Under the pieces are notes generated by a model, which did not search any database, was not told the origin of the DNA, and saw only the letters and a program-made list of their open reading frames with translations. From Streptacidiphilus sp. ASG 303 (GTDB lineage: Bacteria > Actinomycetota > Actinomycetes > Streptomycetales > Streptomycetaceae), in NCBI RefSeq assembly GCF_020991365.1, contig NZ_JAJLRA010000010.1:1-64000 (forward strand): 64,000 nt of DNA. Reading direction: 5' to 3'. The position numbers and the translations under genes are program-made. Numbering within the stretch: position 1 is the first letter of the stretch; each line of letters starts with the position of its first letter. Of the stretch, positions 15,874-25,496 are shown one piece after another.

Positions 15874-17310
15874 ATGGCGCAGCAGGCACGCATCGGGGTC
15901 ACGGGACTGGCGGTCATGGGCCGCAACCTGGCACGCAACCTCGCCCGGCACGGGCATCCGGTGGCGGTGCACAACCGGACGCCGTCCCGGACGAGGGACC
16001 TGGTGGAGCAGTTCGGCAGCGAGGGGGTGTTCCTCCCCGCGGAGACGGCGGAGCAGTTCGTCGCCTCGCTGGAGCGCCCCCGGCGGCTGGTGGTGATGGT
16101 CAAGGCCGGCCGGCCGACGGACGAGGTGATCGAGGAGTTCGCGCCGCTGCTCGACCCGGGCGACATGATCGTGGACGGCGGCAACGCGCACTTCGCCGAC
16201 ACCCGGCGGCGCGAGGCGTCGCTGCGGGAGCGCGGCATCCACTTCGTCGGCACCGGCATCTCCGGCGGCGAGGAGGGCGCGCTGCACGGGCCGAGCATCA
16301 TGCCGGGCGGCTCGGAGGAGTCGTACGCGGCGCTGGGCCCGCTGCTGGAGGACATCGCGGCGAAGGTCGACGGGGTGCCGTGCTGCACCCACGTGGGGCC
16401 GGACGGCGCCGGGCACTTCGTGAAGATGGTGCACAACGGCATCGAGTACGCCGACATGCAGCTCATCGGCGAGGCGTACGACCTGCTGCGGCACGTGGGC
16501 GGGATGAAGCCGGCCGAGATCGCGGAGGTGTTCCGCACCTGGAACGGCGGACGGCTGGACTCCTACCTGGTGGAGATCACCGCGGAGGTGCTGGCCCACA
16601 CCGACGCGGAGACGGGCCGGCCGTTCGTGGACGTGGTGCAGGACCGGGCGGAGCAGAAGGGCACCGGGCGGTGGACGGTGCAGATCGCGCTGGACCTGGG
16701 CGTGCCGGTGAGCGGCATCGCCGAGGCGGTCTTCGCCCGGTCGCTGTCGGGCCACGCGGACCTGCGGGCGGCGGCCCGGCACCTGCCGGGCCCCGGGGAG
16801 ACGTGGCTGGACAGCGCGGCGCACGACCGGTTCGCGGACGACGTGGAGCAGGCGCTGTACGCGTCGAAGATCGTGGCGTACGCGCAGGGCTTCCACCAGA
16901 TCCAGGCGGGCAGCGCCGAGTACGGGTGGCGGATCGACCCGGGGGCGATGGCGACGATCTGGCGGGGCGGCTGCATCATCCGGGCGAAGTTCCTGGACCG
17001 CATCCGGGCGGCGTACGAGACCCGGGCGGACCTGCCGTCGCTGCTCGCCGACGACTACTTCGCCGAGGCGCTCGGCGGGGCGCAGGACTCCTGGCGGCGG
17101 GTGGTGTCGACGGCGACGCAGCTGGGCGTGCCGGTGCCGGGCTTCTCCGCGGCGCTGGCGTACTACGACGGGCTGCGCGCGGAGCGGCTGCCGGCGGCGC
17201 TGATCCAGGGGCAGCGGGACTTCTTCGGGGCGCACACCTACCGGCGGGTCGACCGGGAGGGTGCGTTCCACACGCTGTGGGGCGGGGACCGGCGGGAGGT
17301 CGGGGCGTAG
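15874..17310 (+). CDS. gnd: 6-phosphogluconate dehydrogenase, decarboxylating
   Basis: 478-residue long-type 6PGDH: it oxidatively decarboxylates 6-phosphogluconate to ribulose-5-phosphate, producing NADPH in the pentose phosphate pathway. Rossmann motif GVTGLAVMGRNLARN (NADP), VDGGNAHFADT, the substrate signature FVGTGISGGEEGALHGPSIM, the catalytic Lys/His region HFVKMVHNGIEYADMQLI and the C-terminal WRGGCIIRAKFLDRI. ATG 15874 follows GGCGGGAGC. The length matches the dimeric NADP form. Confidence 0.96.
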   Translation: MAQQARIGVTGLAVMGRNLARNLARHGHPVAVHNRTPSRTRDLVEQFGSEGVFLPAETAEQFVASLERPRRLVVMVKAGRPTDEVIEEFAPLLDPGDMIVDGGNAHFADTRRREASLRERGIHFVGTGISGGEEGALHGPSIMPGGSEESYAALGPLLEDIAAKVDGVPCCTHVGPDGAGHFVKMVHNGIEYADMQLIGEAYDLLRHVGGMKPAEIAEVFRTWNGGRLDSYLVEITAEVLAHTDAETGRPFVDVVQDRAEQKGTGRWTVQIALDLGVPVSGIAEAVFARSLSGHADLRAAARHLPGPGETWLDSAAHDRFADDVEQALYASKIVAYAQGFHQIQAGSAEYGWRIDPGAMATIWRGGCIIRAKFLDRIRAAYETRADLPSLLADDYFAEALGGAQDSWRRVVSTATQLGVPVPGFSAALAYYDGLRAERLPAALIQGQRDFFGAHTYRRVDREGAFHTLWGGDRREVGA

Positions 17311-17334
17311 GCGGCACCCTCCGCGCTCCTTCGC

Positions 17335-17368
17335 GGGAGGCCCCCGCCGGGTGCGGCGGGGGCCTCCC
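17335..17368. terminator. Bidirectional terminator between gnd and mks operon
   Basis: GGGAGGCCCCCGCC, loop GGGTGC, GGCGGGGGCCTCCC: a perfect 14-bp stem between convergent genes, 25 bases after gnd and 22 bases before the end of the leftward operon. Confidence 0.85.
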
Positions 17369-17389
17369 GTGTGTCCGGGGCCGGGCGGG

Positions 17390-20300
17390 TCAGCCGGCCG
17401 CGGTGGGCCCGGCGGGCTCCGCACGTGCGGGGGCCTGGGCGCGTTCGGGCGCCTCGGCGGGGCGGCGGAACATGCGGGTGGCGGTGATCTCGCCGTGGAC
17501 GGCGGGGGCGTCGGGCTCGGGCGGGACGGGCAGGCCGGGGCGCAGGTGCTCCTCCACGGAGATGTACTTGAGGCCGGCGCGCAGGTCGGCGTCGTTGCGG
17601 AGCCGGATGATCAGCGGGAACTCGGCGAGCGCGGTCGTGTCGAACAGGCCGGTGGTGTAGAGGAGCTGGACCCCGAGGGCGTCGGCGACGGCGCGCTGGA
17701 GCTCCAGCAGGTAGGTGGCGTTGGCGCGGCCGATGGGGTTGTCGAGGAAGAGCGTGCCGGCGTGGCGCAGCCGGGCCTGGCCGCGGTCGTTGGCGCGCAG
17801 GGCGGCCATGGTGCAGTACAGGGCGATGGCGGCGGTGAGGAGCTGGCCGCCGGAGAAGACGTCGTTCATCTGGCTGACCGGGACCCGCTCGGCGCGGAGC
17901 ACCGCGTCGGGCTTGAGGATCTCCACGGAGACGCCCCGGGGGCCGAGGGCGGCGTGGACGCCGCGCAGCAGGAGGGACATGCCGTCGCGGCGCAGGTCGC
18001 TGTTCTTGCGGACGGCGGCGCGGGTGGCCTCGTCGACGACCTCGCCCAGGCGCTCCACGAGGAGGGCGTGGTCGGGGTCGTCGAAGCGGATGCGCAGGAA
18101 CTCCTGGCCGGACCACTCCCCCAGGCCGTCGGGGAGGCGGGAGAGCCGCTGGGCGGCCCGCAGGGTGGTGAGGGAGGTCTCGACCAGGCCGCGGAGGCGG
18201 TCGACGATGGAGTCGCGGTTGCGCTCCAGCTGCTGGAGCTCGTCGGTGAGGACCCGCAGGCGGGGGGCGAAGGCCTCCGCCCAGGCGGCGGCGTGCTCGG
18301 GGAGGGCGGCGGCGGGCAGTTCGCGGATCTGCTGGCGGGCGGGGGTGCGGACGGCCTCGTAGCGGACGGAGTTGGCGTGCCGGACCAGGACGTCCGAGGC
18401 GTCGCGGACGGCGAGTTCGGCGGCGGAGAGGTCGGCGGCCGCGGCGCGCAGGACGCGGCGGGCGTCGGCGGCGGCGGTGCGGGCCTCAGCGAGGGTGCCG
18501 GGCCAGGGCTCGGCGGGCTGCTCGGGCTCGTCGGCGGCCGCGGGGTCGCGCAGGCCGTCGCGGAGCTGGGCGGCGGCCTCCTCGAAGGCGGCCGCGGCGG
18601 CCTGCGCGGTGTCGTGGGCGCGGACCAGTTCGGCGTGCTCCGTGCGGGCGGCCTCCAGCCGCTCGGTGCGCTCGGCGAGGTCCGCGGTGGCGCTGCGCAG
18701 CAGGGCCTGGGCGTGGTCGGGGTCGGCGGGCACGAGGTGGTCGGGCAGCTCGGTGTGGGCGTCCCCGGCGGCGGGGGCGGAGCGCTCGGCCTCGCCGCGG
18801 AGGCGGCCGAGCTGCTCGCTGGCGGCGGCGGAGCGGGCCTCGATGAGCTGGACGAGGTCCTCGGCGCGGGCGGCGGCGGCCTGGCGGGAGGGGGCGTCGG
18901 CGCCCTCGGGGCCGCCGAGGAGGTCCTCGGCGCGGGCGCGGACCCTGTTGGTGAGGCGGTCGAGCTCGGCCTGGGCGGCGGTCTCGGCGCTCTCGGCGCG
19001 GGCCTGCTCGGCGCGCAGGTCGGCGCCGACGCCGACCTTCTCGTAGAGCTGCGAGGCGGCGCGGTAGGCCTCACGCAGGGCGGGGAGGGACGGCCGCGGG
19101 GCGGCCTCCGTCCCGGCGGGGACCCCGTCGGTCCCGGTCCCGGCGTCGGCGTCGGCGGGGTCGGGGCGGTCGGTGCCGGTGATCTCGGCGCGCTCGGCGC
19201 GCAGGGCGCGGGCGGTGCGGCGGGCGTCGTCGGCGGTGCGCTGGGCGGCGCGGCGGTCCTCGTCGGCGGTGCGGGCGCGGTCGGCGCAGACCTGGCGGCG
19301 CTGCTCGTACGCGGCGGCGTCGGCGGCGAGCTCGCGCAGGCGGCGGTTCCAGGTGTCGCGCTCGCGGAGGCGGAAGGCCAGGCCGGCGAGGGCGTCGGCG
19401 GACCGGCGGGCCTGCTGGGCGGCGTCGCGGCGCTCCTCGTGGACGGCGGCGGCGGAGGCGCGCTCCTCCTCGGCCTCGGCGTGCTCCTCGCGGGCGGCGG
19501 CGAGCTCGGCGGCGGCGAGCCCGGCGGCGTCGCGGGCCTGCCCCGCGGCGGCGGCGAGCTCGGCGAGGCCGCCGGGCGGGCAGCCGGTGCGCCAGGAGGC
19601 GAGGCGGGCGGCGAGGGCGCGGTCGCCGCCGAGGCGGGCGGCGAGCTCGCGGATGTGCTCCTCACGGGCGGCGGCGCGGGTGCGCAGCTCGCGGCGCTCG
19701 TCGTCGGCGGCCCGCTCGTCGTGCATGGCGGGGTTCGGCGGGACGAGGAAGACGTCGCGGGGGCCGTCGGCGGGCGGCGGGGCGATGAGGGCGGCGGCGG
19801 TGCCGACGGCGACGGCCGAGCGCGGCAGCAGGGCGGCGGCGGCGAGGGCCTCGCGGGCGCGGCCGAGGGCGCCGGGGTCGGTGACGACGACGCCGTCGAC
19901 GAGCTCGGGGCGGGTGGCGAGGATGCGGTCGTGGTCGGCGGGGTCGACGGACTGGGCGAGGTAGCGCCAGCCGGGGAGGGCGGGGATGCCGTGCTCGCCG
20001 AGGTGCTCGACGGTGGCGAGGACGTCGCGTCCGGGCGGGAGCAGGCCGCCGTCGCCGAGGGCGGCGAGGATGCGGGAGTCGTCGGCGGCGGCGGTGCGCA
20101 GGTCGAAGAGGGTGCGCTCGGCGGTGGCGACGGCCTCGTCGAGGAGGTCGCGCAGGTCCTCGGCGGCCGTGTCGAGGAGGTCGGGGGTGAGGACGCCGGT
20201 GCCGGGGGCGCCGGCGGCGGCCTCCGCGGCGTCGTCGTCGCGGAGGGGGTCGAACGGGTACGGGTCGAGGGAGAGGAGCGCGGCGAGGCGGGGCTCGGCG

Positions 20301-22141
20301 GCGAGGCGGGCGGCGGTGCGGCGCTCGGCGGCGAGGGCCCGCTCGGCGGCGGCGCGGGCGTCGGCCGCGCGGGCGGCGGCCAGTTCGGCGCGGGACTCGG
20401 CGGCGGCGGCCTCGCGGGTGCGGGCGGCGGCCTGCTCGGCGGCGGCGCGGGCCTGGTCGAGGGCGGCGGTGGCGGCCTTCTCGGCGTCGGCGGCCTGGAG
20501 GGCGGCGCGGGCGGGGTCGGCCGGGTCTGCGGGGCCCTCGCCCCCGGGGGTGTCGGCGATCCAGCCGGCCTCGACGGCGGCGCGGGTCTCCTGCTCGACC
20601 TCGGCGAGGCGCTGGCGCAGGTGGTCGGCCTCGCTGCGGGCCTTCTGGGCGGCGGTGGCGGCGTCGGTGGCGTCGCGGTGGGCGGTCTCGCCGTCGGACT
20701 GGAGGGCGGCGGCGCGGGCGTCCTCGCGGTCGGCCTGCCCCTCGGCGTCGGCCGCGGCGGACTCCAGGGCGCGGACCAGGGCGGCGGCGGCGCGGGCGCG
20801 GGCGGCCAGGGCCGGGGCGGCGTCGCGCTCGGCGTCGCGGATGGCGGCGGCGACGCGGGCGGAGCGGTCGGCGGCGGCACGGTGGCGCAGGACGGCCTCG
20901 GCGGCCTGCCAGGCGGAGTGCAGGGTGCGGGCGTCGGTGAGCTCGCGGCGCAGCGCGGCCGCGTCGGCGGTGGCGGCGGCGAGGCCGAGCGTCGCGTGAC
21001 GGTGCGTCAGTTCGGCGGTGATGAGGGAGTGGCGGGTGCGGTCGGCCTCGGCGGCGGTGACGGCGGAGGCCGCGGCGGCGACCTCGACGGCGAGGTCGTG
21101 GGCGCGGTCGCGCTCGACGCCGCCGCGGGCGGCCAGGGCGCGGGCGAGGCGGCGGGTGCGGCGGTCGGCGGCGCGGTGGACCTCGCGGACCGTCCCGCGG
21201 GCGTCGGCGGCGTCCGCGATGCGGTGCAGCAGGTCGAGGGAGCCGGCGGTGAAGTCGCGTTCGGCGGTGAGCTCGGCGCGGCGGCCGAGCTTGGCGGCGA
21301 AGCCGTGGACGAGGTCGGCGAGGCCGTCGGTGTCGCGGGTGTCGGTGACGGCGCGCAGCAGCAGGTCGGTGAAGTCGGAGTCGTTCCTGACCGAGAACAG
21401 GCCGGCGGCCTCGCCCTCGTCGGCGTTCATCTCGCGCTGGTAGCGGAAGAGCTCGGGGTCCAGGCCGAGGGCGCCGAGGTGCTCGTTCCAGCGGTCGTGG
21501 ACCTCCTCGAAGGTGACCTCCAGGTGGGGGTCGGCGCGGCCGGCCTCGGTGAGGGCGTCGCGGAACCCCTTCATGGTGCGGCGGCGCCCCCGGGAGACGG
21601 GGGCCGCGGCCCCGGAGCCGTCCGGGCCGGGGACGGGCGGCAGCACGACCCGCTCGGCGACGGGCAGGGAGTCCAGGCTCATGCCGGGGCCGGGGCGGAA
21701 GGAGTACCAGAGCTCGGCGAACCTCCGCGGGTCGGAGGAGACCTGGCGGCCGCGCCACTCGCTGACCTTGCCGACCACGACCGACTCGCCGGTGACGGTG
21801 TGCTGCCACTCCAGGGCGACGTGGCCGCAGTCGTCGGCGAGGAGGAACTTGCGCAGCACGCCGGAGCTGGCGCCGCCGAGGGTGTTGCGGTGGCCGGGCA
21901 GCATCACCGAGAAGATCAGCTTGAGCAGGACGGACTTGCCGCCGCCGTTCTCCAGGAACAGCACGCCCGCCGGGGCGGGGCGGCGGGGCGGGCCGTCCGG
22001 CTCCTCGCCGAAGAGGCCGGGCTGCCGGGGGGCGGGGTCGCTGACGGGCTCCCCGACGCCGCGCAGATCGAGCACGGTGTCGGCGTAGCGCGCGCCGGCG
22101 GGCCCGATCGAGTAGAGGCGGACCCGGTTGAGCTCGTACAT
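17390..22141 (-). CDS. MukB/MksB-like SMC ATPase (JetC-like)
   Basis: 1583 residues, SMC architecture. N-terminal head with a P-loop (ENGGGKS, residues 64-70), then long Ala/Glu/Arg-rich coiled coils (about 280-680 and 830-1330) flanking a compact central region around 700-810 (ALPGWRYLAQSVDPADHDRI) that probably forms the hinge. The C-terminal head has signature VFSGGQLLTAA (1429-1439) and Walker B TLFLDNPIGRAN (D1467). It would form the motor of a bacterial condensin with the kleisin and KITE subunits encoded upstream. The usual Walker A first glycine and the catalytic Glu after the Walker B Asp are not visible (Leu-63 and Asn-1468). ATG 22141 follows CAGGAGACC. Last gene of the operon; no JetD/MksG nuclease follows. 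Confidence 0.85.
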   Translation of the reverse strand: MYELNRVRLYSIGPAGARYADTVLDLRGVGEPVSDPAPRQPGLFGEEPDGPPRRPAPAGVLFLENGGGKSVLLKLIFSVMLPGHRNTLGGASSGVLRKFLLADDCGHVALEWQHTVTGESVVVGKVSEWRGRQVSSDPRRFAELWYSFRPGPGMSLDSLPVAERVVLPPVPGPDGSGAAAPVSRGRRRTMKGFRDALTEAGRADPHLEVTFEEVHDRWNEHLGALGLDPELFRYQREMNADEGEAAGLFSVRNDSDFTDLLLRAVTDTRDTDGLADLVHGFAAKLGRRAELTAERDFTAGSLDLLHRIADAADARGTVREVHRAADRRTRRLARALAARGGVERDRAHDLAVEVAAAASAVTAAEADRTRHSLITAELTHRHATLGLAAATADAAALRRELTDARTLHSAWQAAEAVLRHRAAADRSARVAAAIRDAERDAAPALAARARAAAALVRALESAAADAEGQADREDARAAALQSDGETAHRDATDAATAAQKARSEADHLRQRLAEVEQETRAAVEAGWIADTPGGEGPADPADPARAALQAADAEKAATAALDQARAAAEQAAARTREAAAAESRAELAAARAADARAAAERALAAERRTAARLAAEPRLAALLSLDPYPFDPLRDDDAAEAAAGAPGTGVLTPDLLDTAAEDLRDLLDEAVATAERTLFDLRTAAADDSRILAALGDGGLLPPGRDVLATVEHLGEHGIPALPGWRYLAQSVDPADHDRILATRPELVDGVVVTDPGALGRAREALAAAALLPRSAVAVGTAAALIAPPPADGPRDVFLVPPNPAMHDERAADDERRELRTRAAAREEHIRELAARLGGDRALAARLASWRTGCPPGGLAELAAAAGQARDAAGLAAAELAAAREEHAEAEEERASAAAVHEERRDAAQQARRSADALAGLAFRLRERDTWNRRLRELAADAAAYEQRRQVCADRARTADEDRRAAQRTADDARRTARALRAERAEITGTDRPDPADADAGTGTDGVPAGTEAAPRPSLPALREAYRAASQLYEKVGVGADLRAEQARAESAETAAQAELDRLTNRVRARAEDLLGGPEGADAPSRQAAAARAEDLVQLIEARSAAASEQLGRLRGEAERSAPAAGDAHTELPDHLVPADPDHAQALLRSATADLAERTERLEAARTEHAELVRAHDTAQAAAAAFEEAAAQLRDGLRDPAAADEPEQPAEPWPGTLAEARTAAADARRVLRAAAADLSAAELAVRDASDVLVRHANSVRYEAVRTPARQQIRELPAAALPEHAAAWAEAFAPRLRVLTDELQQLERNRDSIVDRLRGLVETSLTTLRAAQRLSRLPDGLGEWSGQEFLRIRFDDPDHALLVERLGEVVDEATRAAVRKNSDLRRDGMSLLLRGVHAALGPRGVSVEILKPDAVLRAERVPVSQMNDVFSGGQLLTAAIALYCTMAALRANDRGQARLRHAGTLFLDNPIGRANATYLLELQRAVADALGVQLLYTTGLFDTTALAEFPLIIRLRNDADLRAGLKYISVEEHLRPGLPVPPEPDAPAVHGEITATRMFRRPAEAPERAQAPARAEPAGPTAAG

Positions 22142-22259
22142 GGGGCGGGGTCTCCTGAGCGGCTGGTGCGGGGGTCGGGTTCGGGGCGGGCGCGGCCCGC
22201 GGTCTGCGGGTCCGCCGTGCGGTTCCCGGTGCCGGGCCGGGGGCGGCCCGGCACCGGGG

Positions 22260-23162
22260 TCAGAGGTTGTGGAAGGGCAGGCCGGCGTCGGCGACGAGCT
22301 CCTCGGACTCGTCGGCGGGCAGCAGGGTGGCGGTGCCGTCGGTGACGGGGACGACGCCGAGGTCGAGCAGTTCGGCCATGGCGGCGCTCCCGGCCAGGTC
22401 GCGGACCTGGAGCTGGTAGCGGGCGGTGGTGCGGTAGGTGCCGCCGGAGTCGTCGGACGCCTTCTGGAGGAAGCCGGAGTCGACGAGGAAGGCGACGGCC
22501 TTGCCGACGATGCCGGTGGTGGAGCCGGAGAGGCGGCGGGCGTCCTTGGTGGCGCCGGTGGCGCTGCGGCGCGCCCACACCCGCCAGGCCGCCTCCAGGC
22601 CGGGGGCGTCGCTCGCGGGGTCGGTGTTGGCGCCGTCGGCGGCGGCCTGCTCCTCCAGGCGGCGGCAGGCCTGGCGGACGAAGGCGTCGACGCCGTTGAC
22701 GCTGATCCGGCCGATGTAGCCGTCGTCGGCGAGGTCCTCGGGACGGGGGAAGGCCAGGGCGGCGACGGCGAGGTGCGCGAGGCCGTGGAGGAAGCGGTCG
22801 GTGGACTCCGAGGCGGCGCGGCGGGAGTAGTCGCCCATCCGGACGGCGAAGACGGAGTCCTCGGCGGCGGCGACCGCCATGCCGGCCCGGGGCGACACCT
22901 CCAGGACGACCAGCCCGAGGCCGGTGGCGACCGCGTCGGCGAGGCGGGCGAAGGGCGGGTCCTCGCGGTAGCGGCGGACCAGCTCGCCGTACTCGGCGTC
23001 GCGGGCGGGGAGCAGCTTGGGCTGGATGCCGAAGGAGACCAGGCGGGAGGCGTCGGCGACGTCGCCCGGGGTGAGGGCCGCCGCGCGGTCGGCGCCGCGG
23101 CCGGCCTCGCCGGGGCCCGGGTCGGTCGCGAAGGGGACGCCGTCGTCGGCGGACGTGGTCAC
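22260..23162 (-). CDS. MukE/MksE-like condensin subunit (JetB-like)
   Basis: 300 residues from a GTG at 23162 (CCAGGAGC upstream). Hydrophilic, helix-rich and without membrane segments. The N-terminus (SRLVSFGIQPKLLPARDAEY) is followed by a winged-helix-like middle and a C-terminal part that includes GSTTGIVGKAVAFLVDSGF and TYRTTARYQLQVRDLAGSA, as expected of the tandem winged-helix KITE proteins that bind the kleisin in MukBEF-type condensins. Assignment rests mainly on position: it sits between the SMC gene (118 bases downstream) and the kleisin-like gene (148 bases upstream), the usual F-E-B order. Confidence 0.7.
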   Translation of the reverse strand: MTTSADDGVPFATDPGPGEAGRGADRAAALTPGDVADASRLVSFGIQPKLLPARDAEYGELVRRYREDPPFARLADAVATGLGLVVLEVSPRAGMAVAAAEDSVFAVRMGDYSRRAASESTDRFLHGLAHLAVAALAFPRPEDLADDGYIGRISVNGVDAFVRQACRRLEEQAAADGANTDPASDAPGLEAAWRVWARRSATGATKDARRLSGSTTGIVGKAVAFLVDSGFLQKASDDSGGTYRTTARYQLQVRDLAGSAAMAELLDLGVVPVTDGTATLLPADESEELVADAGLPFHNL

Positions 23163-23310
23163 GGGCGGTGCTCCTGGCGGGTGGCTGCGGGTACGGGGCG
23201 GGCCGGCGCGGGGCGGGCGGCACCGGCGGGGCTCGGGGCCGGACGGGCCGGGGACGGGGAGGGCGCCGCGGACGGGGGGAGGGCCGCTGGCGGGGAGGGC
23301 GTCGGGGACG

Positions 23311-24867
23311 TCATCCGGCCTCCGCACGCTCGGCCGCCATGCCGGCGGAGTCCAGCAGGGCGCTGCCGACGACGAGGTCGGCGCCGCCGAACTCGGGGTC
23401 CCGCAGGGGGGTGCCGTCGTCGACGGCGAAGAGCAGCCGCCCCTCCCCCTGCCGGTAGGCCGTGCCGACCGGCGGGCTCGCGGCGTGCACGGCCAGCAGC
23501 GCCACCAGGTAGGGCAGCTCGGGGTCCTGGCGGCGGGCGTCGGCGAGCAGGCCGGAGAGCCGGCGGGGCGCGTCGGCGGGCAGGTCGAGCAGGTGCAGGG
23601 CGGCCTCGAGCTGCTCCTCGGAGAAGCGGCTGTCGTCCGGGGTGGCGACCAGGTCGGGCTCGGGCAGCTCGGCGCCGAGGTGCTCGCGCTCGGGCGGCGG
23701 GGTGAGCAGCAGGTCGACGAGGTCGGCGACGCGGACGGCGGACGGGGTGCGCAGGCCGGCGCCGCGGGCGAAGAAGGCGTCCGTGGGGCGGGTGGCCCGC
23801 TCGACGGGGAGCGGGAGGAGCGGGGCGAGGAGCTGGCCGTAGAGGTCGATGCCGGAGCGGGCGGCGGGGGCGGCGAAGGCCTGGCGGTCCTGCTCGGCGC
23901 GGAAGAGCGGCCCGGCCTCCAGCAGCCGGGTCTGGAGCTGGGTGTGGCGGCGGATGCAGTCCTGGACGATGTCGACCAGCTCGGCGGCGCGGCGCTTGTG
24001 CTCGGGGTCCTCGGACTCGTCGCGGGCACGGCGGATGTTGGTGAGGATCGCGTTCTCGTGGCGGTAGCGGTCGGCGACGTGGTCGAGCGCCTCGGCGATC
24101 ATGTCGGGGACGGCGACCGCCCAGTCCACCGCCCGGACGTTGCGCCGGGTGGCCTCCAGGGCGCGGCGCAGCGTCTCGGCGTACTGGACCGTGCGGTAGC
24201 GGGCCTGCTCGGCTGCGAGCTGCGCGTCGGCGAGGCGGCCCCGGCGGATGAGGACCTCCAGCTTGACCTCGGCGGCGATCTGGGCGGAGGTGACGTCGGT
24301 GTCGAGGGCGCCGACGAGGACGTTGACGGCCTCGTCGGTGGTGCGCAGGTAGACGCCGCCGTCGGGGCCGGGCACCTCCTCGACCAGCTTGAAGTCGTAG
24401 TCGCGGCGGACGTAGGAGCCGTCGGGGCCGAAGGTGCCGTAGACGGCGCGGAAGCCGCGGTCGACGCTGCCGACGTTGATCAGCGACTCCAGGACCCAGC
24501 GGGCCACGCGCTCGTGCTCGGCGGCGGGGCGGCCCGGGTTCTGCGCGGCGACGCGGGGCAGCATCCGGGCCAGGACCAGCTCGCGGTCGGCGCCGGTGTC
24601 GAAGTCCATGTGGAGGGTGACCAGGTCGATCGCGGCGAGGCCGACCTCGGCCATGGCGTAGGCGGAGTACTCGCCGGCCAGGTTGACCTTGCGGGCGTCC
24701 AGGTCGTGGAGCGGGGCGGTGCAGGCCAGCGCCTTGAGCCGCCGGGCGAGGCCCTCGTCGGCGGCGGGGCCGGGCGCGGGCCGGGCCGCCCCCGGCGCGG
24801 AGGGGGCCGCGGGCACGGTCGGCCGCACCCGTGAGGGGGCGGCGGTGTGGTCGGCGGTGCTGGTCAC
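23311..24867 (-). CDS. MukF/MksF-like kleisin subunit (JetA-like)
   Basis: 518 residues, first gene of the condensin operon. After a Pro/Ala-rich N-terminus the protein is predominantly helical (residues 40-330), with LHDLDARKVNLAGEYSAYAM, RWVLESLINVGSVDRGFRAV and TTDEAVNVLVGALDTDVTSA. This agrees with the winged-helix plus helical middle layout of kleisins in Mks/Wadjet loci. The C-terminal part (LLLTPPPEREHLG and FSEEQLEAALHLLDLP) would contact the SMC heads. GTG at 24867 is chosen because the frame further upstream is repeat-derived. A TAGTCT box ends 8 bases before it with no clear ribosome site, so translation may be leaderless. Confidence 0.7.
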   Translation of the reverse strand: MTSTADHTAAPSRVRPTVPAAPSAPGAARPAPGPAADEGLARRLKALACTAPLHDLDARKVNLAGEYSAYAMAEVGLAAIDLVTLHMDFDTGADRELVLARMLPRVAAQNPGRPAAEHERVARWVLESLINVGSVDRGFRAVYGTFGPDGSYVRRDYDFKLVEEVPGPDGGVYLRTTDEAVNVLVGALDTDVTSAQIAAEVKLEVLIRRGRLADAQLAAEQARYRTVQYAETLRRALEATRRNVRAVDWAVAVPDMIAEALDHVADRYRHENAILTNIRRARDESEDPEHKRRAAELVDIVQDCIRRHTQLQTRLLEAGPLFRAEQDRQAFAAPAARSGIDLYGQLLAPLLPLPVERATRPTDAFFARGAGLRTPSAVRVADLVDLLLTPPPEREHLGAELPEPDLVATPDDSRFSEEQLEAALHLLDLPADAPRRLSGLLADARRQDPELPYLVALLAVHAASPPVGTAYRQGEGRLLFAVDDGTPLRDPEFGGADLVVGSALLDSAGMAAERAEAG

Positions 24868-24905
24868 GGGGGTCAAGACTAGAGGGAGGGACTGACAACG
24901 TCCCA
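24868..24905 (-). promoter_or_regulatory. Candidate promoter for leaderless mks transcript
   Basis: On the minus strand TTGGGA, 19 bases, TAGTCT, then TGACCCCC and the GTG start. The distance from the -10-like box to the start codon (8 bases) is what is seen for leaderless actinobacterial mRNAs. The -35 is poor. Confidence 0.35.
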
Positions 24906-24940
24906 AACGCCCCGAATGGGCGCCGCCGGGGCGCCCCGGG

Positions 24941-25040
24941 GCCCTGCACCACCCCTCCCCGCCCGGCCCTGCACCACCCCTCCCCGCCCGGCCCTGCACC
25001 ACCCCTCCCCGCCCGGCCCTGCACCACCCCTCCCCGCCCG
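24941..25040. repeat. 25-bp tandem repeat, four perfect copies
   Basis: Unit GCCCTGCACC + ACCCCTCCCC + GCCCG repeated four times with no change (24941-24965, -24990, -25015, -25040), plus a start of a fifth. It lies between the divergent mks operon and the copper-storage-like gene. The units abut with no spacers, so it is a minisatellite and not a CRISPR. Perfect identity implies recent expansion or homogenisation. Confidence 0.95.
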
Positions 25041-25133
25041 GCCCTCCCGCGTTGCCGCGGCGGTCCGGCGGACGTAGGACGGAAGCACCCGGAGCCGCGA
25101 GGAAGCGGCTCCCCCGTGCGCCCAGGAGGCGTC

Positions 25134-25496
25134 ATGCAGCAGACCGGCGGGATGGCCAGGATGAGCAAGGAGATGCAGGAGTGCGTGGACGCGTGCCTCG
25201 CGTGCCACAGCATGTGCGAGGAGACCATGAGCTACTGCCTGCAGCAGGGCGGGCGGATGGACGCGCGCATCATGCGCGCCCTCATGGACTGCACGGACAT
25301 GACGCGGATGTGCGCCGACATGATGATGCGCCGGTCCCCGCTGGCCGCCGAGGTGAGCGCGATGTGCGCCAAGGCGTGCGAGATGTGCGCCGAGGCGTGT
25401 CGCAGCGTGCCGGACGACCAGCAGCTCGCCCGGTGCGCCGAGGCGGCCGCCCGCTGCGCCGAGAAGTGCCGCGCGATGACGGGCGTCCGCGCCTGA
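25134..25496 (+). CDS. Csp3-like four-helix copper-storage protein (DUF326 type)
   Basis: 120 residues with 14 cysteines at 17, 21, 24, 28, 35, 53, 60, 78, 82, 85, 89, 101, 108 and 112, arranged as CxxxC/CxxC motifs along amphipathic helices (CVDACLACHSMC; CAKACEMCAEAC). It is also rich in Met and His. This is the pattern of cytosolic Csp proteins, whose four-helix bundle is lined with Cys to bind Cu(I). No signal peptide, so it acts in the cytosol. Excellent ribosome site AGGAGG five bases before ATG 25134. Divergent from the mks operon; no copper ATPase or CsoR neighbour is seen. Confidence 0.85.
   Translation: MQQTGGMARMSKEMQECVDACLACHSMCEETMSYCLQQGGRMDARIMRALMDCTDMTRMCADMMMRRSPLAAEVSAMCAKACEMCAEACRSVPDDQQLARCAEAAARCAEKCRAMTGVRA

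Follow-up and report, generated by a model that had tools for sequence, protein, structure and literature searches.

What might an SMC complex of the Wadjet kind do when no nuclease is encoded with it? The question is raised by jetABC, a three-gene operon in Streptacidiphilus sp. ASG 303 (Streptomycetaceae) that lies within positions 1 to 64,000 of contig NZ_JAJLRA010000010.1, the 64,000-nucleotide stretch of DNA that was analysed and is called the window below. Wadjet has been described as a machine that extrudes DNA loops and is coupled to JetD (PMC10586767; here and below, papers are cited from the portions available to us). On balance, the sequence comparisons presented here make it somewhat probable that jetABC encodes a nuclease-free SMC motor derived from type III Wadjet, which would be induced by DNA damage and act on the chromosome.

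The first-pass annotation of this DNA had recognized an F-E-B-type SMC operon without a nuclease and named it MukFEB/Mks. Profile matches and the A-B-C gene order bear out the operon type and point to a different name. JetC belongs to the PADLOC family JetC3 (1352 bits to PDLC00588), and every one of the eight families it matched at E up to 1 is a JetC3 family; JetA belongs to JetA3 (626 bits to PDLC00567, covering residues 34–516 of 518). A Rhodococcus plasmid carries a complete JetABCD operon (L009), in which the gene behind jetC is annotated as JetD domain-containing; JetA shares 53% identity with the JetA of that operon, and JetB 53–54% with its middle protein. JetB itself gave no Pfam, NCBIfam or PADLOC match. 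For PADLOC, the lack probably reflects the model, since the JetB of the complete Rhodococcus operon reaches PADLOC JetB3 only at 4e-4. (The JetB query used with Pfam, NCBIfam and in the first PADLOC search carried 16 extra N-terminal residues; the PADLOC search was repeated from the protein's own start.) Pfam and NCBIfam returned no match for JetA, JetB or JetC at E up to 1. When PDB sequences were searched, a JetA profile found no match, a JetB profile found matches only at E 0.04 and above, none of them relevant, and JetC found a single one at E 0.35 that we took as chance. Comparison of a JetA profile with Escherichia coli MukF and of a JetB profile with MukE gave hhalign probabilities of 0.1%, a weak test given its single-sequence templates. 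On the strength of the JetC3 and JetA3 profiles and the likeness of JetB to that of a complete operon, jetABC is, by sequence, a Wadjet type III core and not MukBEF.

A JetD nuclease was sought at the locus, in the rest of the genome and in relatives. The own genome (6.99 Mb, 99.5% complete) contains no match at E up to 1 to JetD_C (PF09983) or JetD3 (PDLC00594), the only two JetD models tried, and both models detected the positive control from Corynebacterium glutamicum. The earlier suggestion of a Wadjet system with its nuclease elsewhere is thus not borne out by these searches, while the reported lack of a linked nuclease subunit holds. We compared 40 family loci, comprising the window and 39 others, all of them readable beyond jetC for at least 1200 bases; tblastn with two JetD queries found JetD in none. 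Another 80 loci, hereafter the named loci, are the best 80 of 542 relatives (79 Streptomyces and one Kitasatospora); JetD is absent from all 68 that have three complete genes and extend 1200 bases or more beyond jetC, and no JetD was found in any of the 80, 12 of which are cut by contig ends. A JetD homologue just outside the operon in related genomes, which the first-pass annotation had named as the finding that would speak against it, was therefore not encountered in these 40 and 68 loci, and JetD turned up only beside other, divergent copies.

Across the family, 14 of 121 genomes contain JetD3 matches, 10 of them strong (>170 bits) and four weak (<50 bits). Each of the 10 strong matches adjoins a divergent JetC that is 36–50% identical to the window JetC. 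The remaining 107 genomes lack a JetD3 match at E up to 0.01, and all except G074 carry a jetABC orthologue. One copy (L099) is counted as JetD-bearing indirectly: its contig ends before the place of JetD, and the JetD of its genome lies on another contig beside a piece of JetC. The IFDR motif of type I JetB, described as a JetD contact (PMC10586767), was tried as a marker of JetD loss and set aside as uninformative because it is not seen in the JetB of JetD-bearing type III operons either. On a Streptomyces plasmid (L011, 13572–15553), a gene annotated as a 3'-5' exonuclease directly follows the JetD-like gene of a divergent JetABCD operon.

The operon belongs to the core genome of Streptomycetaceae. 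JetA was found in 120 of the 121 genomes, own included, with at least 74% identity in 119 of them; in G002 a contig end truncates the match, in G083 the match falls into two pieces, and ten genomes have one stop inside the aligned JetA stretch. Of the 40 family loci, 39 have jetA, jetB and jetC intact, and 68 of the 80 named loci hold them as closed open reading frames (ORFs). The genes are under purifying selection: the ratio of non-synonymous to synonymous substitution rates (dN/dS) for JetA is 0.05–0.19 in nine of nine pairs, two of which come from a second family, f18, discussed below, and for JetB it is 0–0.40. Comparison values are 0.14 for gnd (one pair) and 0.11–0.16 for glpD and glpK (two pairs each), a 49-codon glpK fragment with a dN/dS of 0.49 having been left out. 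The split jetA of G083 and a broken copy in G013 could reflect decay or sequencing errors alike.

The sequence upstream of jetA suggests when the operon may be used. A consensus of tTGTCRgtg-8nt-TannnT has been reported for the LexA/RecA-independent promoters of mycobacteria (PMC5656591), and PafBC acts on promoters of this RecA-NDp type (PMC8223512, PMC6789036). Such a promoter stands so close to the GTG of the window jetA (see the table) that the jetA mRNA would be leaderless. We scanned 118 upstream regions, 40 from the family loci that were read and 78 from the named loci. TTGTCRGTS-N8-TANNNT occurs in 14 and 21 of these, respectively, TTGTCRG-N10-TANNNT in 15 and 55, and [TA]TGTCRG-N10-TANNNT in 22 and 73, while the loosest form,.TGTCRG-N10-TANNNT, which was relaxed after the sequences had been inspected, occurs in 31 and 76, or 107 of 118 family operons. 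The same two elements at eight other spacings (6–9 and 11–14) gave no hit in any group, and Markov-resampled sequence contains the relaxed pattern 0.00–0.01 times on average. In all 107 operons, the promoter is followed at 6–8 nt (7–8 nt in 104) by an in-frame start codon whose frame stays open into jetA. A sigma-70-like pattern was found in none of 119 regions upstream of jetA, one of which belongs to a JetD-bearing copy.

The company that this promoter keeps is consistent with a damage response. Genome-wide, the strict pattern TTGTCRGT-N9-TANNNT occurs 13 times in the own genome versus zero times for the reversed pattern. Besides jetA, the nearest ORFs by Pfam include recA (start 8 nt behind the site) and dnaX (7 nt), as well as polA, a paralogue of the DNA polymerase III beta subunit, a sigma-70-family factor, an ABC transporter and a DUF4241 gene; the sigma factor is presumably of the extracytoplasmic function type. 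At less convincing sites, an HU domain begins only after about 350 bases, or a MerR-family domain at a greater distance; one site precedes an ORF without a Pfam match, and two have no ORF. SCO6735 of Streptomyces coelicolor provides a parallel, with a RecA-NDp promoter and induction by ultraviolet light (PMC5087735).

The ATPase motifs of JetC and the tail of JetB offer further clues. JetC carries a Walker A motif (ENGGGKS), a signature (FSGGQ) and a Walker B motif (LFLDNPIG); the latter two are kept in 40 of 40 family JetC sequences and the first in 39, the exception being the broken copy in G013 (L069). ENGGGKS is likewise present in 12 of 14 reads of f18 JetC, and L110 and L120 as read lack it. 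The D-N of Walker B was considered as the sign of a dead ATPase and rejected: JetD-bearing copies share it, so LDN is not a degenerate change. Near its C-terminus, JetB has a peptide, A-G-L-P-F-H, with 98–100% identity per column over 116 sequences. GLPF[HF] lies within the last 60 residues of 115 of 117 family JetB proteins and is absent from the 14 JetD-bearing ones. JetC also has a C-terminal motif, TATR.[FY][RK]R (encoded at about 17460–17500), in 86 of 108 family, two of 14 f18 and none of 13 JetD-bearing sequences; since similar stretches with different letters occur in f18 and JetD-bearing tails, it cannot clearly be called family-specific.

A second nuclease-free lineage allows the history of the operon to be followed. 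In a survey of the class, which scored at most five candidates per genome and may have missed some, JetA was present in 43 of 296 genomes, 28 of them Streptomycetaceae and 15 from the one other family, f18. Within f18, JetA is found in 19 of 35 genomes; of 19 loci of nuclease-free type that were read, seven end at or before the place of JetD, and the other 12 lack it. JetD3 matches occur in 15 of the 35 genomes, with six places above 100 bits, and the f18 genome G396 holds both a nuclease-free copy (L220) and a JetD-bearing one (L219), the JetA of the latter being 61–62% identical to the window JetA; the promoter pattern was not found at this JetD-bearing copy.

Trees of these proteins bear on the number of JetD losses. 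In a JetA tree of 54 rows, one branch (support 94/90) had every nuclease-free copy on the same side. This picture of single loss weakened once L219, a JetD-bearing copy near that group, was added, in a tree with long branches and poor resolution. A tree of JetA, JetB and the ends of JetC (1403 columns) has 34 rows, namely 14 family, 11 f18 and nine JetD-bearing sequences, with L010, L011, L068 and L123 (the most distant JetD-bearing copies), L099 and L102 left out. It recovers a family clade (100/100) and an f18 clade (100/99) and groups f18 with JetD-bearing copies (96/94), which favours two losses; a single nuclease-free clade is not rejected by the approximately unbiased (AU) test (p 0.163). 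When three distant JetD-bearing copies serve as the outgroup, those that lack JetD branch from within the JetD-bearing set, which argues for loss from a JetABCD ancestor, probably on two occasions, in Streptomycetaceae and in f18 separately.

These observations suggest a mechanism in which a type III JetABCD ancestor lost JetD and what remained entered the core genome of Streptomycetaceae. Single-stranded or damaged DNA would activate PafBC, which would switch on jetABC through the RecA-NDp promoter; JetC, JetA and JetB might then bind and extrude chromosomal DNA, so that damaged or stalled DNA would be folded or held rather than cut, and AGLPFH might be where a new partner docks. We infer PafBC control and use under DNA damage from the promoter, a chromosomal substrate from the conservation of the operon, a partner for JetB from its conserved tail, and loop extrusion without cutting by analogy with the Wadjet loop extruder and the JetD-less MksBEF of Pseudomonas aeruginosa. 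A more detailed version is tentative, and we give it somewhat less than even confidence: jetABC would serve as a second condensin, inducible by damage and domesticated from a type III Wadjet that lost JetD, probably independently of the loss in f18; it would be wired by PafBC together with recA and polA, and would have newly gained a docking peptide on JetB through which a partner from repair or replication is brought to damaged chromosomal DNA that has been extruded.

Several points weigh against a damage-inducible chromosomal motor. No JetA was found in G074, G012 has only a 28% copy and the G013 copy is broken in the jetB and jetC frames, so the operon is not strictly essential. JetC evolves faster than JetA (dN/dS 0.09–0.34, and 0.44 in one frame-broken pair), and the family sequences are related rather than independent. 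The strict promoter consensus covers only 35 of 118 operons and the larger count depends on the pattern relaxed after inspection; moreover, an initial search suggested that the Mycobacterium smegmatis PafBC motif is not conserved in Streptomyces venezuelae, while PafBC homologues exist (PMC9380542). The nuclease-free f18 lineage mostly lacks the promoter (present at two of 14 loci and at none of four further ones) and lacks the JetB peptide altogether (0/15). The relaxed pattern is shared by six of 14 JetD-bearing copies (L009, L098, L099, L103, L104 and L105), three with an in-frame start right behind it and three without, so the promoter is no mark of domestication and fits defence too; certain type III Wadjet systems may have carried it from early on. 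One of the six lies on a Rhodococcus plasmid.

This sharing of the promoter feeds the main rival, which is that jetABC still serves defence, either silencing circular or foreign DNA by compacting rather than cutting it, or delivering such DNA to some unrelated protein that the JetB tail would bind. Smc5/6 has been discussed as a loop extruder that could keep viral genes from being expressed by compacting circular DNA (PMC10586767), the ancestor was a plasmid-restriction system, and the tail suggests a new partner. Set against this are the near-universality of jetABC in the family and its place among metabolic genes. Defence systems are usually patchy in distribution, and the JetD-bearing type III copies are patchy, with 10 strong matches in 121 genomes; we regard continued defence as unlikely, if the least so of the alternatives. 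That a Wadjet system operates here with an undetected or highly diverged JetD in trans strikes us as improbable: profiles can miss very diverged proteins, and PF09983 and PDLC00594 were the only ones used, yet neither matches while the control does, most family genomes pair an orthologue with no JetD3 match, and every strong match in the family adjoins a JetC. More doubtful still is a second general condensin, constitutive and working in the chromosome arms or in sporulation with the promoter incidental. Core conservation despite the presence of SMC-ScpAB would suit it, but the conserved upstream element that was recognized is a damage-type promoter at the start codon, no systematic search having been made for others. 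The idea of a decaying Wadjet remnant, which the missing JetD, the broken G013 copy and the two-piece G083 copy might evoke, is contradicted by purifying selection, with 39 of 40 loci intact, dN/dS well below 1 and the ATPase motifs kept, and has very little to recommend it. We retain the damage-inducible chromosomal motor as the preferred reading.

Table. Features of the jetABC locus in the window
Feature	Position	Strand	Description
jetA	23311–24867	minus	518 aa, GTG start at 24867; F-type subunit, kleisin-like by JetA3 homology only
jetB	22260–23162	minus	300 aa, GTG start at 23162; E-type subunit, KITE-like by gene order and homology only
jetC	17390–22141	minus	1583 aa, ATG start at 22141; SMC-type ATPase
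AGLPFH peptide	22269–22286	minus	near the JetB C-terminus, behind a variable linker
RecA-NDp/PafBC-type promoter	24876–24898	minus	TTGTCAGTC-N8-TAGTCT; jetA GTG 8 nt further on
16-bp hairpin	17334–17369		terminator-like, between convergent jetC and gnd

The layout of the locus largely agrees with the first-pass annotation. The three genes are consecutive, intact, leftward ORFs in the order and position claimed, with intergenic gaps of 148 and 118 bases. Downstream, gnd (PF00393, 15874–17310) converges on jetC across 79 bases that hold the hairpin, and the 85-nt stretch around it (17308–17392) folds at −57.5 kcal/mol (z −4.1), in keeping with the strong terminator that had been proposed. The claimed metabolic setting is likewise confirmed by the neighbours, which comprise glpK, glpD, an IclR regulator, gnd and LamB/YcsF. 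The supposed copper-storage gene upstream fares less well, being a Cys-rich 114-aa ORF divergent from jetA (25152–25493) with no Pfam match at 1e-5; by eye we take it to resemble a four-helix copper-binding protein. In sum, an F-E-B-type SMC operon without a nuclease stands, the MukFEB/Mks name does not, and the near-universality and the damage-type promoter had been missed. Among the 40 family loci, the genes that most often adjoin jetC encode a histidine kinase, which we take to be CvnA-like (18/40), and LamB/YcsF (14/40), and no conserved replacement gene was found beside jetC. Directly upstream of the jetA promoter lies a perfect 25-bp tandem repeat (24940–25045; 4.2 copies, 100% matches) that is absent from the inspected upstream stretch of a relative of the same genus (L058). 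In 14 of 16 single-contig family genomes inspected by hand (all but G057 and G065), jetA falls roughly in the contig's outer quarter.

ScpA of the standard SMC-ScpAB complex, which had been assumed to be present, is encoded in the own genome too (PF02616, 190 bits). Papers on Streptomyces chromosome folding, in the portions available, treat SMC or SMC-ScpAB as the condensin, with no mention of jetABC (PMC8410768, PMC8410849, PMC12511625, PMC13121528), and a survey that counts Wadjet systems in 42% of Actinobacteria and finds them enriched at the ends of Streptomyces chromosomes does not mention JetD-less loci in its available sections (PMC10482375). A paper found with both PafBC and Wadjet (PMC9122601) concerns another regulator as far as its available text goes. 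Within the open-licence literature on Streptomyces together with Wadjet, MksB, condensin, JetA, JetC or DUF3584, or on PafBC or RecA-NDp together with Wadjet or MksB, we recognized no description of jetABC. Should jetABC act on the chromosome, a near-universal second complex would have been overlooked in the main antibiotic producers. Since JetD-bearing operons carry the pattern too, the promoter further suggests that type III Wadjet defence may itself be tied to DNA damage in some actinobacteria.

Comparison with known systems shows both likenesses and differences. The operon shares with Wadjet type III the JetA3 and JetC3 profiles, the A-B-C order and a JetB identity of 53–54%, and differs in having no detected JetD, in being near-universal rather than patchy and in the extra C-terminal peptide of JetB. 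With E. coli MukBEF it has the F-E-B gene order in common, and no JetA–MukF or JetB–MukE match was detectable in the weak test available. A review, concerned with a field in which most work so far has addressed type I, proposes that MksBEF and MukBEF may stem from Wadjet defence; it sees loss of JetD as the likely origin of P. aeruginosa MksBEF, which helps to organise the chromosome (PMC10586767). MksBEF is likewise a three-gene SMC complex without a nuclease, a likeness drawn by description only and with a member of a different phylum. In Streptomycetaceae, where JetD-bearing and JetD-free type III operons occur in one family and JetD was probably lost twice when f18 is included, the change from Wadjet to condensin could be traceable in living lineages. 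The mycobacterial PafBC/RecA-NDp regulon completes the comparison: its promoter consensus and spacing are the same as those at jetA, and the recA of the own genome carries the promoter too.

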